Shown here one piece after another: positions 6,316-39,195 of a DNA stretch of 64,000 bases. Position 1 is the stretch's first letter, and each line of letters starts with the position of its first letter. The notes beneath the pieces were generated by a model, which saw only the letters and a list, made by a program, of their open reading frames with translations, had not been told where the DNA came from and searched no databases. The position numbers and the translations under genes were made by a program. This DNA comes from Dipodascopsis uninucleata var. uninucleata (taxonomy: Eukaryota; Ascomycota; Lipomycetes; Lipomycetales; Lipomycetaceae): positions 620,001 to 684,000 of the forward strand of contig JAJLTO010000001.1 in assembly GCA_030568195.1 (NCBI GenBank), read 5' to 3'.

Positions 6316-9118
6316 TTAAATCATATAACGACTATTGGGATGCGCTAAACCACTAATATAGTTCGTGCCCGTTGATGGTTGGGGGTAGGTCCTAAAGGAC
6401 ATATTATTGTCGGCTGTATCTGTTCCATTATTATTATTGTTGTTCGTGTTGGTGGTGGTAATAGAAGCATTATTGTTATTGCTGTTATTGTTGTTAGCAG
6501 CATCCGTGGGAATTTCAGGAATCCATAGATCAGCAAAGTCATCGACTGAAAACGCTTGATCCAAGAAGCTAGTGGGATTTGGTAAATCGGAAAACATCTC
6601 AAGGATCTGATTTTCTAATGGCGTAGCTCCAGCGTTCGCAGTTCCAGTACTTTGCGGAGTCTGGGGATCAGTTAACGGAATATATGTAGGTACAAATTGA
6701 GGTACACTAACAGTATTTTGGGGACCTGTCGTTAGCATACCCGAATCTGCGATTCTAGAACTAGTAACAGCCATGGACGGCGGCTGGATGCCGATCGAAG
6801 TTGCCATAGATGACGGTATGGTCGTCGTAGGTCTAGAGATTCCAGAGACTCGAGAAGCCAATGATGTTGCTACCACATGTTGAAGCGCCTCTTCAGCATT
6901 TCTGAATTCCACGTCTTCTTCCAGCTTTCTAAACACTGTTCTTGCCATACCACCCATGGCTTCTGCAACCCACCATGTCTTTGAGAGGTTATCAAGAACT
7001 GCACAACTCTCATGCCATCCAGCAGTTGCTTCCGGTGAAGGAAATAATCTAAGAAACACTGTCAAACATAAAGAGACTGTGTAAGGAACAACCGGGAAAG
7101 GTGGAAGGTTTGGTTGAGACTTAACAATGTGAAGAATCTGAGAAGTAGAGTGCAGCAAAATAGACGCATTGAGCTCAGGCTCCTCTGGAGCACGCTTGTG
7201 AGCTAGGATACAAGCCGCATGTCGAATCAGCTGTAATAATGCAGCAAAAGGTGAAGACTTAATATCATATCCATATGACACCTCGACGTCAACTTCTAAC
7301 GGCAATTGAGAACCCACAGGACGATACATTCCTATGACATCTTCAAGGATTTTACAAACTTCATACAGCTTTGAGAGCCAGCCTTCCTCATAAACAGTCA
7401 GAGGACTAACGCCAACATCATCTAGCCTTGATATCAGCGGTCTCGCAGAAACACATGCAGAGATACGATCCAGGCACCACAAACACCACCATAGTCGTCT
7501 CATAGCGGCTTGATCAGGGTGTGATCGTCTTTCATGGTGGATACCTAAAAAGTGAGCATAGTGAAAGGCCAGTTCCAAATCAGAACAAGACCTTTCCAGT
7601 CCATCAGAACCTTCGGAATGTAGAGAGAGAAGAGCAAGTACACGAGTAACCGTAAGCTTATCTCGCTCAACTTCTGCAAACATGAGAGCGCGTATTTTCG
7701 TAGCAACCATAGAAGCAAATTGTCGTGGAGAGCGCGGAGTGATATACTTTCTTGCAGCCGGATGACGGCATGCGGCTAAAGTGACAGCGTGCAAGAGAAG
7801 AGTAGGGCATTCGTCACGCATGTGCTGTTGCATAAATGTTTGCTGGTCAAACAACGGTAAAAAAGGATGTATATTTTCAAAATATACATTCAACAGGCCC
7901 TCTCTGTCGTGTCGTGATGGCAAATCAAATGCATGAACTGAATCGAGATACGTCAGTAAATGTTGATTGACTGGCTGGTGCATGGATGCTCCTTTCACCC
8001 AAACACCTATTCGATCTTTCTCTACGTTATGTAAAGTTAAGAGAACGGAAGCAGGGTCCAAATCACCAATAAATCTAGTTGAACCTATGTCATTTGTTGC
8101 AGAAGATGTTGCTATATTCTTCCGGCTTGTTTGATGTCTCGCAGCAGATTCACGACTATTGCCATCTAAAATAGAAACGTCATTGCCAAGATCTGAAAAT
8201 GTAGCAGCCGTTGAGGATGCTACAGGGGCATGTGCTGCTGCTTTAGCAGCTGCTGCTGAAGCTGAAGCACTCTTCATAGGTATAGATGCTGTGGCTGTTG
8301 TAGGTCGCAAACCTTGAGAATGCTCAGTCTTAACATTGAGTGAACCGGAAGATGAATGCATACCACCATTGCTAATTCCAATGCTAGAGTTGCTATTGCG
8401 ATGAAGATCCGAATCCGTTCCGAGACGTCCAATGTTGTCATTGATATTACTATTATTAATTTTATTATTATTACTACTATTGCTGCTTTTGCCGTTACTG
8501 CTGCTACCGTTGCTACTATCGTTATTAACCGAACTACCAAAATCGGGAAACTCTGCAGATGTTGGCGAGATGGACGCTCTAGCTGCTTTCACCAGCTTCT
8601 CGGTTAACTTTTTGCTGTCTTCATAATCGTCAGATACACTAGATTCTTTCCGATCCTCTTCAAGCGATATTGGAACAAGACTGAGAGTTATATTAGCAAC
8701 TGCAACCTGGTGCTCGTTTTAGCATATACCAGCGAATCCAAAAGCACATACCTGCAGGGGATGTTTTCTTTCATGCATGGCGCACATCTTTCGTGATTTT
8801 TGAAGGGCGGTTCACATCGTTTCTAAACATGAAATCAGAGTGTTAATTAGCAGTTAGATCTACCACAATCTAGTACAAGCACTGTCCGCCTCTTACTGGT
8901 GCTAATGACACCTGCTCTTCGAGAGCAGGTGCCATCACGATAATACTAATTTCCACCTACAGCGCAAAAGCAAAACAAAATCGCATCATGCCGCAATGAA
9001 TAGTATTAGCAATAAAAATTAAAATTTAACGTACCCTTCGCCGTTTGCACTGCTCGCATGCTTTGTGAGCACGCTTACGTTTACGATAGCCCTCATCGTT
9101 CGCCGGAAAGACGAACAT
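6316..9118 (-). CDS. Zn2Cys6 transcription factor with fungal_trans domain
   Basis: Three exons, 9118-9035, 8822-8752 and 8680-6316, give 839 residues. The binuclear zinc cluster spans all three exons: CEQC at residues 20-23, then a cysteine after KRRRKR, then C-x9-C-AP-C-x6-C, i.e. CX2CX6CX9CX2CX6C, preceded by the basic stretch RKRKRAHKA. A Ser/Asn-rich low-complexity linker follows. The middle homology region (fungal_trans) starts around VYFENIHPFLPLFDQQTF and includes RRLWWCLWCLDR. The C-terminus is Asn/Thr-rich (runs of N near the end) and may be an activation region. Family members bind CGG-type sites as regulators; the target is unknown. Intron 1 holds a perfect 10-bp-arm hairpin, and a very long non-coding region lies upstream. 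Confidence 0.9.
8909..8931. repeat. Perfect inverted repeat inside intron 1 of the transcription factor gene
   Basis: Arms CACCTGCTCT and AGAGCAGGTG flank a 3-nt loop. The element lies in the 211-nt first intron (9034-8823), so it could fold in the pre-mRNA or act in DNA. Each arm includes an E-box-like CACCTG/CAGGTG. Confidence 0.7.
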
Positions 9119-9886
9119 GGCAGCAAATGAAAGGACAGGACTTTAAGCAGAAGTTTGGAGAAACCCGAAGAATAACCAGGAAACGCTCCGCCTAACACCG
9201 ACAGCAAGCACTTAATACAGAATTTATATATGTATGTATTATATTTGAGAGAGCTGAAACGAAACGAGACGAAAGTCCAGTGTGCTTATGAAGGCGTTCT
9301 CATACACAAACAATAGATAGTCGCGGCGAGTCAAACAAAATCCAGTTTAGGACGCAAAGGTACTTAGGTTAGATTGCTGCAAAAAGCTTGGATACCTGTT
9401 TCAACGAGTGGCCTGGGACGAGTGTAGTTTTGCTAGTTCGCGAATCGATTAAACCAGTATTGCAGCTGTTTCCGCCGCCTTAGAGGATCCCGCTTCTCAG
9501 ATACCGCAAAATAATATGCGTACACCTTCAGCGGAAGTCATGCTATATTCAATAGCGCATGAATGCTTAGTTCGCTGGAAAAAAATCAAAAATCTGATTG
9601 AGTTAAGCTGCTTTGTCGTTGTACATAAGTGAATCTGCGAGCAATAAATATATGTATGGATTTTATTTTTATTTATAATCGAGGACGAGGAAAGATGCTT
9701 TGAGAGAGCTTAAACGCAATAAAAATTTAGAGTGAAAAGAAGACTCTTACTACTATTTATTGTGGGGGCCACACCTCTCTTTAATCCACCTTTTCCTTGG
9801 GTTACAAAGCATAAAATAAAACGACTTCACGATAATTACACTGCTATGGTCTTCGATGCATCCTTACCCTCTGGTCTCTAGCTGAG

Positions 9887-9896
9887 TATGCGCATA
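9887..9896. repeat. 10-bp palindrome TATGCGCATA
   Basis: Perfect palindrome in the region upstream of the transcription factor. Possible homodimer binding site; no known match was assigned. Confidence 0.35.
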
Positions 9897-10351
9897 GTAG
9901 AAAGCCTACGGTGTGTGTATGTCCACTTAGGTGCCACATTGAGAGGGAAATAGCAGCAGAAACGTTAACAGTACCTAAACTCTCAACCACACTAACAAAC
10001 TGTGTTCACAGAAAAGTCTGACTGTTCTTATAATAGAGCAATTCCCTCTCCGCATATATTGTTCGTTATTTACGCAGCGCAGACTGTATCGTATTTTATG
10101 GAAGTACGTAGCTATCCCTGATAGATTGTCAGCTATGTGATCACTTAGCACTTGGTGACCACTAACGCTAGCTCACGAGCCAGTAAGCAGTACAGGCTGC
10201 GTGGGCAATGGTGTCTAATTTGGCGCCTGATTACTTGCTTGAATGTGTCTGACGATCGTGAAGGAGCCAATTGAGGTGTAGTAGCAGTAGCAGCTACCGT
10301 AGTGGTCATAGGCATAGGCGGAAAACTGAATTTTAAACTACTACCGGTGGC

Positions 10352-10359
10352 TATATAAA
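10352..10359 (+). promoter_or_regulatory. Consensus TATA box (TATATAAA)
   Basis: TATATAAA followed by G matches TATAWAWR on the plus strand. It sits at the left border of the GC-rich non-coding core, about 2.3 kb from the next plus-strand coding gene. If used, it would drive a transcript through the island. No RNA evidence is available. Confidence 0.35.
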
Positions 10360-10386
10360 GCGCTAGTTTGAAGCCACTTGTCCACC

Positions 10387-10398
10387 GTGGCCGGCCAC
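10387..10398. repeat. 12-bp perfect palindrome GTGGCCGGCCAC
   Basis: Self-complementary 12-mer about 30 bp downstream of the TATA-like box, with no spacer. It could be a regulator binding site or a chance palindrome. Confidence 0.45.
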
Positions 10399-10914
10399 TT
10401 TGAACGTCTTTTGGGTCTGGTATCAGCAGACGACGTTGCGATTCTGCGTAAAACCACCACCGCCATCGTGGCTATTAGCAAGACAGCAAGCTGCGAGCGA
10501 GCGCGGCCGGGGAGGACCAAAGTGCCTTCGTGTTCTACAGCCTTTGTCAATGCGTTGTTTTTTTTACTTTCTGTTAATGTCCGTAAGAGCCGGCATGCTG
10601 CTGGCATTCCGTGCTAACACCAACCAGTGAGGACTACTACGTGCCTACTACATGCAAAACATCAGCTGCGCGCTGTTGTAAGTGGTGCAGTTGCTGGGAT
10701 ATACAGGGCAATCACACCAGTACTGTGGATACCTACGAGATTATTCTTTTCACGGCCCCTCACCCTTGAGCACGCGGTACAGGGCCTGGAGTACAAGATC
10801 CTTTGTGCGATCCGCACACTCGCTGCGTAGCGTTCGCGGGGCAGCCGGAAAACCAGCGATCTTATTATATAGAGTGCCTAGCTTTATTGCTTACATCCTT
10901 CATCCTCCACCTGG

Positions 10915-10940
10915 AGCGCTGGTCTACTGTGACCAGCGCT
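10915..10940. repeat. Perfect inverted repeat, 10-bp arms
   Basis: Arms AGCGCTGGTC and GACCAGCGCT are separated by six bases (TACTGT). It lies in the middle of the GC-rich non-coding region. It would form a stable hairpin in RNA and a two-fold symmetric site in DNA. Confidence 0.7.
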
Positions 10941-11473
10941 ATCGTAGTACACGATCTTCCAGACTACGCTTGCTGCAAACTACGGTTTGTGCAGATTAAG
11001 GACTAGGCGAGCATGAGCCTGACCGCAGGAAAGACGCTGTACGTACACTTCAGAGATCCTGCACTTAGGAAACACGGAATTACAATGAACCACGGCCATT
11101 AATTACAAACTGCATATGCCGATAAGCTAAGCATATTACTAGATCAACGGTACTAAAATACAGGCAAATCGCGATCGTAGTAGTCGCTGCCTAGTAGAGG
11201 CTGGCCAGGGCAGGAGTGGAGCTACTTTTGCGCTCTACTTAGCATTAAGCAAATGCAAACTTTATAAGAAGACACGCCCGTGTACCTTAGTGCTAGTAGC
11301 AGCCAATCTCAGGGCTGGCGCTGCACAACTCGCCTTAGTAAAAGGCCTGTCGTGCTTCCGCGCACAGCCCAGCTGCGTGACACTTACGGCCCACCGCAGC
11401 GTTAAGTGGCACGACTCGAGGTAGCCGAACCCAGATGACATGCACGTTAGTAATCATAGCGTGCTCCGCTTGC

Positions 11474-11479
11474 ACGCGT
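11474..11479. promoter_or_regulatory. MCB-like ACGCGT within palindrome GCACGCGTGC
   Basis: ACGCGT is the core of the yeast MBF site. Here it is centred in a 10-bp palindrome (11472-11481). It lies about 2.3 kb upstream of the transcription factor and 1.2 kb upstream of the metallo-hydrolase gene, so the target is uncertain. Confidence 0.3.
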
Positions 11480-11658
11480 GCCTGCAACTGCGCTGCTGCC
11501 TCTCAGACTGCTCTTGCCGTCGATCAGCCTAGCATGTCGCAGCACCAGCTCAGCTACAGCAGCTCGTAGTCTGCGTTGCATTCAGCTCACCGCGTCCCGC
11601 AACGCCCAACACGCTTGCGCTGCAACTGCAGGACCAAGCCGCACTCCGCCCGCCGCCT

Positions 11659-11684
11659 GCGTGCTGTTCGGGCGAACAGCACGC
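11659..11684. repeat. Perfect inverted repeat, 12-bp arms
   Basis: Arms GCGTGCTGTTCG and CGAACAGCACGC flank only two bases (GG). This is the strongest inverted repeat I found in the non-coding island. It may be a symmetric protein-binding site or a hairpin in a transcript. Confidence 0.75.
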
Positions 11685-12335
11685 CCCTGAAGCGTGGCCC
11701 ATATGTATTATGTAATACCTTATGTAACGGGCACAGAAAGTGCGTGCCTGCGCGACCAGCAGTTGAATTTTCATCTTGTTTGCTCCACTGCTTTTGGCAG
11801 AGTCGAGCGCCGCACTGTCTGTGGCTCAAGACTATGCGTGCGCATATGCAGCAGTCGCTGGGCAGTGGGTATTGCAGCTGGACCGGATGTGAGATATTCT
11901 GCTTTTCAGAAGCTGGGCGGGCGTTCAGCTTACGGCTCATATATTACTTTCCTTAGGCTGCTCTGGCTGAGCGCTGCGTGAGGCATTGTCTCTTGATGAC
12001 TGAGTCGTCCCGTGAATTAGCTAACTCAGGCATATTTATCCTGCTTAGGCCCGCTGGATAAGAGCAGATAGATGGGCGCAATTAAAGTTTGGTACTTCTT
12101 TACTTTTTTGTATGCTATTTCCTGATCTCGAGGAGCTGGCTTTGGAGACTATCTGCGACCGCAGTTGGCTCGCTCAATTAAATTCCATGTGCTTAGCTCC
12201 GCGAAAGCAGTACCAAGCAGTCACTCGTCCATTCTATGAACCATTTTCGCTGCGGTATCCACAGATAATTGAGATGCTTGTACTGTTTAACAGCGCTCGA
12301 GAGCGAAGCTCGACGAGTTGGTTTTCCCAAGGGAC

Positions 12336-20233: not shown

Positions 20234-20858
20234 TTATTGCAGACGAAACACTTCTACAAACATGGCAATGTAGGCAAGGACACACACAATGGTCATTCCC
20301 AAAACCATATTACCAGCAGTAAGCACGTATCTCTGAGGTTTTATCTTCAAATGAAACCTATTCGTCTGCAATCGTCGCAAGAGTCCAATTGCCATAAACG
20401 CGAAACCTAGAGTAAATAGATTAACATTAACAAGCCTTTAGTTAGGTATGAGCAAAGACGAGCTTACCAATAACTGCAAAAGCTGCACCAATAGGATAGA
20501 ATTCGATATCAAATACACGAATAATCGACAATGCTGGACCTTGTTAGCAATCTTAAGTAATAATTATAATCATCTAGCACTTACATAATGTAACTTCCAA
20601 CATTGCAGTACGTAAGTAAGCACCTTCGTATGTTCTTTGATATGCTATCAAACTTATTAGACCTTACAATACTAAATCTACAACAATTACAGCCATGGAC
20701 TTGATAGTATTCTTACCTCTATACCATTGTTAGAATCAACGCAAACCTTTCTCTATGAAAATTAACTACATTGCGATAAACACTTACCTGACATCTATAA
20801 TCTCTGTATTGTCGACGAGCATATCGTCATGCTTCCTCCTTCTGAGGTTCGATTCCAT
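20234..20858 (-). CDS. DUF202-family membrane protein with a 2-nt internal exon
   Basis: Exons are 20858-20788, 20718-20717 (two bases, AG), 20644-20585, 20533-20468 and 20406-20234, giving 123 residues. The conserved fungal DUF202 segment RAYQRTYEGAYLRTA spans exons 1-3. It reads correctly only if the two bases AG are included between exons 1 and 3. Hydrophobic helices lie around residues 41-75 (VTLSLSIIRV to AFMAIGLLRR) and about 93-117 (NMVLGMTIVCVLAYIAMFV). Basic loops and an N-terminal MESNLRRRKHDD tail complete it. DUF202 proteins are small multi-pass membrane proteins of unknown biochemical role. A further intron, GTGAAT to GAACAG, probably lies in the 5'UTR. It is divergent from SEY1. 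Confidence 0.8.
20717..20718 (-). other. Two-nucleotide microexon of the DUF202 gene
   Basis: On the minus strand the sequence reads CTAACAATGGTATAG, then AG, then GTAAGAATAC. This is a branch site and acceptor directly followed by two bases and a good donor. Exon 1 ends in phase 2 and exon 3 needs phase 1, so exactly two bases (modulo 3) are missing. The other AG acceptors I tested upstream give stops or the wrong frame. Confidence 0.7.
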
Positions 20859-21302
20859 TTCCGCAGTTGTCTGTTCAAAAATCATGTTAAAATTTCAAGC
20901 TATACCATACTTCTGATATTCACCTACTCCGACCATGTTTCGTCTAGCGTCGTCAAGCGAACTTGCATTCAAAATATCTATCTATCGTAATATCGCATGT
21001 AGCAATTAGAACTTCAAAAAATGAGATCTCTCTTGGTAGTCACTCCATATAAGGAATAAGTGGAACGATATGTTACATTTATACTACTCATTCCAACTAC
21101 ACTAATAAACTAGGCCAAATGCAAGGCAAATCCACCACTACACTTTACCAAGCGACAGAAGCGCTGTGGAGTTATAACTAAGGTCGCTTAGATATATCTT
21201 GTAGAATCGAGTCAAGCCAAAACATTTGCGTTAATTTACTGATATTTAGGAGTATTTTTTTTTCCACCGAAGAACCAAGCAGACGACAGTCACAAGCTGG
21301 AC
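20859..21302. other. Bidirectional promoter region DUF202/SEY1
   Basis: Shared 444-bp upstream region of two divergent genes. The DUF202 side appears to include a 5'UTR intron of about 55 nt (donor GTGAATAT near 20924, acceptor GAACAG near 20871). No factor site was recognised. Confidence 0.5.
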
Positions 21303-37527: not shown

Positions 37528-39195
37528 ATGAAGCGAAGAGCATTGACAATAGTAATAAAGCTTGGTAGGTTATAAGCAGAATCAAGCATGAAAACTGACT
37601 CCTTGGTGGTATAAGAACTAATCAGCTGGCTTCTAGGAACATCGTCAATCTGTGACGAGGTGACACATGAACCGCGAATGGCTAACATGTCACTGATTGT
37701 CGAAACTGTAGTTAAGCTGCGGAGAGAGGGTCACAGAGTAATTATCGTTTCTTCAGCAGCTATTGCAATGGGCCTGAAACGGTTGGATATGCCTAAAAGA
37801 CCAAAGCATCTTGCTACGGTTCAGGTGGGTTAATCATTACATGTGTTTATTAATTTTTAGAGAAACAATTGCTAAATATTATATACTATTAAACTACAGG
37901 GTCTGGCTGCCGTCGGACAGTGTCGTTTAATTGCACTATGGGATGAGTTATTTAGACAATATAATCTACCGGTAGCTCAGATTTTACTCACGCGGAACGA
38001 TATTGTTGATGTAAGTAATACTGCTTCTAGTGGTCGAAGATCGGTCTTGTACAACTCTAACTAGTTTCTTACCTTTGAAGCGTGCTCAATATCTCAACGC
38101 GGCGAACTGTTTGCATGAGCTTTTGAATATGGAAGTTGTACCAATTGTAAACGAAAATGATACATTATCTGTCATGGTGAGTCGCATTGCTTCACTTTCT
38201 TTCTTCTCTAAAAATAATATTTTATTGCTTTTTAAACACCAAACTAACCAAGCCAAGGAAATCAAATTCGGTGACAATGACACATTATCAGCTATTACTG
38301 CAGGAATGGCCAATGCGGACTACTTATTTCTTATGACAGATGTAGATGGTCTCTACACTGACAACCCTAGACATAATCCTAATGCTATACCAATCGAAGT
38401 AGTTTCCGACATAGGCCAGCTCAATGTGGACGTTTCTACGGCTGGCAGCAGTGTAGGAACGGGAGGAATGGCTACAAAATTAATCGCAGCAGAGCTTGCA
38501 ACATCTGCGGGTGTGGAGACGATCATCACTAAATCAGCAGTACCAGGGAATATTCACGCTATTATTGAATATTTATCCTATCTCAAGGAGCAGAGTCGCT
38601 CTCGATCAAATTCGCCATTTGATGATGATAACGGTCATGATTCGACTACCCAGGAGCTTCTTGTAACGCCTCCACGCCACACCAGATTTATCCCACAAGA
38701 GCACCCTATTAAAGATCGTCAATTTTGGATTTTGCATGGTCTTAAATCTCATGGTACTATTTATATTGATCATGGAGCTTACAGAGCTATCACTAGAACC
38801 AATAAAGCGGGCCTTCTTCCAGCAGGTGTTCTTCACCTCAAAGGAAGCTTCAGTGCATCAGAAGCTGTCACTCTGGCTGTCTTAGACAAAAATCATTTGG
38901 ACTCCTGTGATACATCCAACGAGGAAGCTTATACTTTGTTGCTAGACAAGAGTGAAATTGTTGGTCGCGCAATTGTCAATTATTCATCAGCTGAGATATA
39001 CCGCATCATGGGTCTTAAAAGTAGAGAAATTGGGTCGATTTTGGGGTACTCAGGTATGCTGTTTCAATAAATTTTTTTTGTGTCGTAATAAACTAATTAT
39101 ATTTTATTAATTTAGATTCTGAGTATATCGCTCATAGACATAATATGGCTTTTCATCATAAGCATACCAATGCTAAGATATGCAGTGACAATTGA
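37528..39195 (+). CDS. PRO1: Glutamate 5-kinase Pro1 with PUA domain
   Basis: Six exons, 37528-37564, 37637-37824, 37900-38010, 38081-38176, 38258-39053 and 39116-39195, give 435 residues, close to yeast Pro1. The amino-acid-kinase domain has [12 protein letters not shown] at the start, [45 protein letters not shown] and [14 protein letters not shown]. The PUA domain follows ([19 protein letters not shown], then [13 protein letters not shown]). The enzyme makes gamma-glutamyl phosphate, the first step of proline synthesis, and is normally feedback-inhibited by proline. Intron donors vary (GTAGGT, GTGGGT, GTAAGT, GTGAGT, GTATGC). The first four introns are only 66-81 nt. Confidence 0.95.

Follow-up and report, generated by a model that had tools for sequence, protein, structure and literature searches.

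The window analysed here is a stretch of 64,000 nt from Dipodascopsis uninucleata var. uninucleata (assembly GCA_030568195.1, contig JAJLTO010000001.1, positions 620,001 to 684,000 of the forward strand). On its minus strand, a gene runs from ATG 20885, or from the in-frame ATG 20858, to a stop codon ending at 20234 (Table 1). The gene is located upstream of what we take to be a TRS130-like gene, and the divergent neighbor on the plus strand is presumably a SEY1-like gene.

Table 1. Features of the gene and of one alternative first coding exon (positions in the window).
Feature	Position	Strand	Description
Exon 1	20788..20885	-	MIFEQTTAEMESNLRRRKHDDMLVDNTEIIDV plus AG; open frame; ends GTC AG at 20788
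Intron 1	20787-20719	-	69 nt; CAG/GTAAGT, branch TTCTAAC, TATAG at 11 nt; 26.2 bits
Predicted two-base exon AG	20718-20717	-	basis: reading frame and flanking signals
Intron 2	20716-20645	-	72 nt; GAG/GTAAGA, branch GTCTAAT, GATAG at 12 nt; 16.9 bits
Exon 3	20585..20644	-	(A)YQRTYEGAYLRTAMLEVTL; starts CA TAT CAA AGA at 20644
Intron 3	20534..20584	-	51 nt; CAG acceptor at 10 nt; 23.1 bits
Exon 4	20468..20533	-	part of the gene
Intron 4	20407..20467	-	61 nt; 15.1 bits; required by the frame on either side
Exon 5 with stop codon	20234..20406	-	end of the gene
Alternative first coding exon ATGTCAG	20788..20794	-	start 20794; single intron 20787-20645, 21.7 bits

The original prediction held that exons 1 and 3 are in incompatible phases and that two bases between them restore the frame, and both statements agree with the sequence. 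GTC AG at 20788 and CA TAT at 20644 are out of frame, and the AG at 20718–20717 (flanked by ...TTCTAACAATGGTATAG and GTAAGAATAC...) lies, as claimed, between an acceptor TATAG with branch point TTCTAAC and a donor GTAAGA. Both flanking introns are complete, each having a donor, a branch point and an acceptor. When the two bases are included, the A forms the third base of the arginine codon AGA and the G the first base of the alanine codon GCA, and the frame is open over 132 codons from ATG 20885 and over 123 codons from ATG 20858. If AG is left out, reading from ATG 20885 ends at a stop after 60 codons; a stop is also met if intron 2 is retained. The predicted product, MIFEQTTAEMESNLRRRKHDDMLVDNTEIIDV-R-AYQRTYEGAYLRTAMLEVTLSLSIIRVF..., has 132 residues and reads DV-R-A-YQRTYEGAY at the junction, with exon 3 encoding YQRTYEGAYLRTA. 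The arginine preceding AYQRTYEGAY is a residue which we take to be conserved.

Hydropathy analysis revealed hydrophobic stretches around residues 63–88 and 102–131. The best Pfam match is DUF202 (PF02656) with 18.2 bits and an E-value of 0.0035, which is below the curated cut-off of 23.4. Consequently, the DUF202 label of the original prediction stands as the best match but is weak, and the protein may at most be called a small DUF202-like, putative membrane protein. The Pfam score is 18.2 bits with the two-base exon, 17.9 with acceptor AAG 20653 and 19.2 with start 20936, and does not tell these gene models apart. No relatives of the locus were found in viral contigs, and degenerate patterns for the RTYEGAY stretch returned no hit in viral or prokaryote contigs. 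Among solved structures, the two matches obtained (E-values of 0.81 and 0.83) do not represent a relative, and a literature search limited to open-licence papers returned none with the string RTYEGAY.

The splicing rules of the window were derived from manually placed introns, which replaced the 42 mostly unusable candidates of a codon-score intron finder. Out of 22 candidates (21 distinct donors and TIF5), 17 were kept as references and five were dropped: 18849 (two in-frame acceptors), 47003 (no supported join), and 52594, 57718 and 56773 (gene not identified). Gap-free alignments with glutamate 5-kinase and Utp10 cover the PRO1 and UTP10 joins, both IPL1 joins are inside a protein kinase match, and the two sorting-nexin joins are inside PX and Vps5 matches; the remaining 11 introns are based on open frames on both sides. 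Reference introns are 52–237 nt long (median 71), with acceptors 10–26 nt past the branch point chosen by the model (n = 17 for both). All four references that have an AG 3–5 nt past the branch point skip it, namely PRO1-1 (TAG at 4) and UTP10-2 (TAG at 3), as decided by the frame, PRO1-2 (AAG at 5), as decided by the alignment, and SNX4-2 (CAG at 5), as decided by the Vps5 match. Two of the dropped introns touch on the same point and were left uncounted: in its open frame, 56773 would likewise skip an AAG located at 4 nt, whereas the frame of 52594 remains open if an AAG at 4 nt is used, making it a possible counter-example. AAG itself serves as acceptor in three of the 17 references. The PRO1-like gene (38011–38257) has two introns ending in AAG, each of which skips a nearer AG at 4 or 5 nt, and thus illustrates a minimum branch-to-acceptor distance cleanly in a natural gene. 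A further pair of acceptors was observed in intron 3, where two in-frame sites lie 6 nt apart; the AAG at 4 nt scores 18.2 bits, and by the local splicing rule the CAG is used.

Introns 1 and 2 of the gene, with 69 and 72 nt, match the median reference length, and their acceptor distances of 11 and 12 nt fall within the reference range. In contrast, the undivided interval of 143 nt is longer than 16 of the 17 references and is exceeded by TIF5 (237 nt) only. Under the two-base-exon model, intron 2 passes over an AAG 4 nt from its branch point. Introns were scored with weight matrices for donor, branch point, distance and acceptor, each reference being scored when left out, and the 17 references ranged from 16.5 to 25.8 bits. 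Intron 1 outscores all of them, intron 2 is near their low end, and intron 4 is below the lowest reference. Since intron 4 is forced by the frame, 16.5 bits is not a sharp limit.

Exon 1 looks coding. Its codon log-odds score is 5.5 in frame, compared to −19.3 and −14.4 in the other frames, both of which contain stops. Over 33 codons, it reaches 5.24; coding stretches, themselves included in the training set, give 4.0 ± 2.0. Of 375 ATG-open stretches that are off-frame or intergenic, 16 attain the value of 5.24, as do 13 of the 217 that overlap no listed gene, some of which are possibly unlisted genes.

Alternative gene models were enumerated as in-frame chains, requiring more than 2 bits for donors and more than 8 bits for introns and allowing starts from 21350 on. 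The enumeration yielded 76 chains, eight of which have a single intron, including those with acceptor AAG 20653 (V-S-L-I-A-Y-Q-R-T-Y), start 20794 (M-S-A-Y-Q-R-T-Y) and start 20936 (M-V-G-V-A-Y-Q-R-T-Y). The AG is needed for the frame from ATG 20885 or 20858 unless AAG 20653 is used, and it is not needed from ATG 20794 or 20936. Because other in-frame chains exist, the two-base exon is favored but not obligate. Thus, the original prediction was too strong in calling it obligate, the strongest of the other models starting at ATG 20794, and, while none of the alternative acceptors it tested kept the frame, the view that nothing else does so is wrong, as AAG 20653 keeps it. What stands is that the two-base exon is part of the best-scoring gene model and fits the splicing rules of the window. 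At a charge of 16 bits per intron, a value of our own choice, and without any deduction for how rare two-base exons are, this model ranks at the top with 11.1, followed by start 20794 with 7.4 and 5.7, start 20936 with −0.7 and acceptor 20653 with −0.9; two further chains, which combine other starts with the same two-base exon, have 6.2 and 5.5. A rarity penalty of about 4 bits would bring the model level with start 20794 in its recursive form, and one of about 5.5 bits with the simple form. The missing penalty is the main weakness of the ranking, as the lead of the two-base exon would vanish at roughly 4 to 6 bits, and evidence outside the ranking therefore matters.

With a start at ATG 20794 (ATGTCAG|CATATC, MSAYQRTYEGAY...), a single intron of 143 nt would be removed either in one step or recursively and no two-base exon would exist; in the recursive form, TATAGAG|GTAAGA would be a zero-base exon whose first removal recreates CAG|GTAAGA. 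The intron has 21.7 bits in one step and 22.5 and 16.9 bits in the two-step form, these forms rank second and third, start variants aside, and a first coding exon of 10 nt is also present in TIF5 of the same window. However, the intron has twice the median length, the strong internal sites would be a coincidence in the one-step form, and exon 1 looks coding. The start context is poor as well: ATG 20794 has a T at −3, while ATG 20885 and ATG 20858 have a purine, like nine of ten comparison genes, whose starts are partly assumed. In addition, ATG 20794 is preceded by four ATGs in 91 nt, two of which, 20885 and 20858, have a good context and start a frame overlapping the protein, whereas the comparison genes have no (8 genes) or one (2 genes) preceding ATG (n = 10). 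This argument cuts only partly, since 20885 and 20858 are preceded by three ATGs each. We regard the start at 20794 as unlikely, although it is the most serious of the rivals. A single intron of 135 nt ending at AAG 20653 would also keep the frame with an acceptor of a type in use in the window, but its 15.1 bits come nearly entirely from the donor. Its best-scoring branch point is a poor TTGTAAG, the AAG is only 4 nt from CTAAT, a distance at which the four informative references skip an AG, and TTCTAAC...TATAG would be bypassed; we give this model the least credence of all. Hardly more probable is a first exon further upstream, an assembly base error or a decaying gene, taken together. For example, a 13-nt exon from ATG 20936 (MVGVAYQRTY...) has a good context, keeps the frame and has the marginally best Pfam score, but its donor TAG|GTGAAT reaches 5.4 bits and its intron 15.3 bits, and this intron of 279 nt would exceed every one of the 17 references in length and bypass CAG|GTAAGT. 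Moreover, once introns 3 and 4 are taken out, the remainder of the gene reads as an open frame, which speaks against this group of explanations. Weighing the sites and their strength under the local splicing rules together with the reading frame, we consider it likely that a real two-base coding exon is present in the gene and is used in the RNA.

The chance expectation of such a structure was estimated by dinucleotide-shuffling the interior of the 143-nt interval 20,000 times, keeping the donor and the last 22 nt. An internal acceptor/donor pair at most 30 nt apart, with both introns scoring at least 16.5 bits, occurred in 2,777 shuffles (13.9%); in 1,222 (6.1%) a qualifying pair had a length of 2 mod 3, and in 191 (1.0%) it enclosed two bases. 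A qualifying pair with a first intron of at least 26 bits was found in 14 shuffles (0.07%). Thus, a microexon-like pair is not rare by chance per se, but the strength of intron 1 is. The in-frame pair at the bare threshold in 6.1% of the shuffles counts against the two-base exon. An origin of introns 1 and 2 by tandem duplication is unsupported: their alignment score of 45 equals the highest value among 55 pairs of other introns (mean 30.3), but that of the cores alone is reached by 148 of 2,000 shuffles.

For splicing of the two-base exon, we propose that the spliceosome brings together the sites at either end of each short intron. Intron 1 would be removed at TATAG, the first AG at a permitted distance (11 nt), leaving CAG-AG|GTAAGA; intron 2 would then be removed from this junction with GATAG, 12 nt past the branch point. 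The two bases left would finish the arginine codon and begin the alanine codon. Removal would have to be stepwise, because only 2 nt separate acceptor 1 from donor 2, which precludes binding of both at the same time, and intron 1, being stronger, is probably removed first. The original prediction emphasized that exons this short escape normal exon recognition. This surprise was overstated, since the flanking introns are of ordinary size and can be recognized across the intron, so that the two-base exon itself need not be recognized. The site also has the form of a recursive splice point, as the acceptor AG abuts the donor GT (TATAGAG|GTAAGA; first step 22.5 bits), and a zero-base step shifts the frame of exon 1. 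Use of the AG 2 nt after TATAG would leave nothing and recreate CAG|GTAAGA, giving a frameshifted product; such loss of the two bases, with its stop after 60 codons, would result in an unproductive transcript. That the tandem acceptors form a built-in switch between a productive two-base exon and an unproductive zero-base frameshift strikes us as decidedly doubtful.

A fungal precedent for exons this short exists. According to PMC12940212, Fusarium CYP621A has a one-nucleotide exon with transcript reads, called the first for a fungal gene; exons of 2–5 bp in Arabidopsis, Drosophila and humans are cited there. Both cases concern an exon below 3 nt in a fungal nuclear gene, found via a phase clash, located in a motif taken as conserved and in an interval about twice the median intron (139 nt in CYP621A, 143 nt here). 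However, the CYP621A exon has 1 nt and is accompanied by 20 orthologs, an intronless relative and transcript reads, whereas the exon described here has 2 nt and is predicted from the DNA of one genome. In plants, two reports describe one-nucleotide exons in APC11 (Arabidopsis; PMC4674806) and VPS55 (PMC8831610), which are likewise far below recognizable size but RNA-verified and conserved. For APC11, the Discussion of PMC4674806 prefers intron definition combined with recursive splicing. Fungal [D] stwintrons, e.g., in Lipomyces, resemble the present case in having two nested or abutting intron units that are removed consecutively, but there the internal intron splits the external donor and nothing is left (PMC7138796). 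Here, the second donor (GTAAGA at 20716) is uninterrupted and two coding bases stay. A fungal microexon is also described for Trichoderma Xlr2, with its inclusion depending on the glucose level (PMC11121469). A literal phrase search of the open-licence literature returned no two-nucleotide nuclear exon in fungi by title. The exon is probably a new member of a rare known kind, the exons below 3 nt.

If confirmed, it would join Fusarium CYP621A among the fungal exons below 3 nt and provide a compact natural substrate of 143 nt for studying how the spliceosome deals with an acceptor lying 2 nt from a donor. The model predicts an mRNA with GATGTCAG-AG-CATATC, and the contrary joins would be GATGTCAG-CATATC or GATGTCAG-TTTGATAGCATATC. 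Conversely, cDNA containing CAGAGCATATC would contradict the models with start 20794 and acceptor AAG 20653. Genes of this kind would be truncated or misread by automatic annotation.

Apart from this gene, ARAGORN (bacterial code) found no tRNA genes across positions 1–64000. The bin 8001–12000 has a GC content of 0.469, compared to 0.37–0.41 in the other 4-kb bins, and no ORF of at least 130 codons starts between 8719 and 12048. An open stretch of repetitive composition was observed on the minus strand at 280–879. On the opposite strand, the ATG-open stretch at 421 has the highest codon score (11.3) of the 375 compared, so the gene near 280–879 is probably located on the plus strand.
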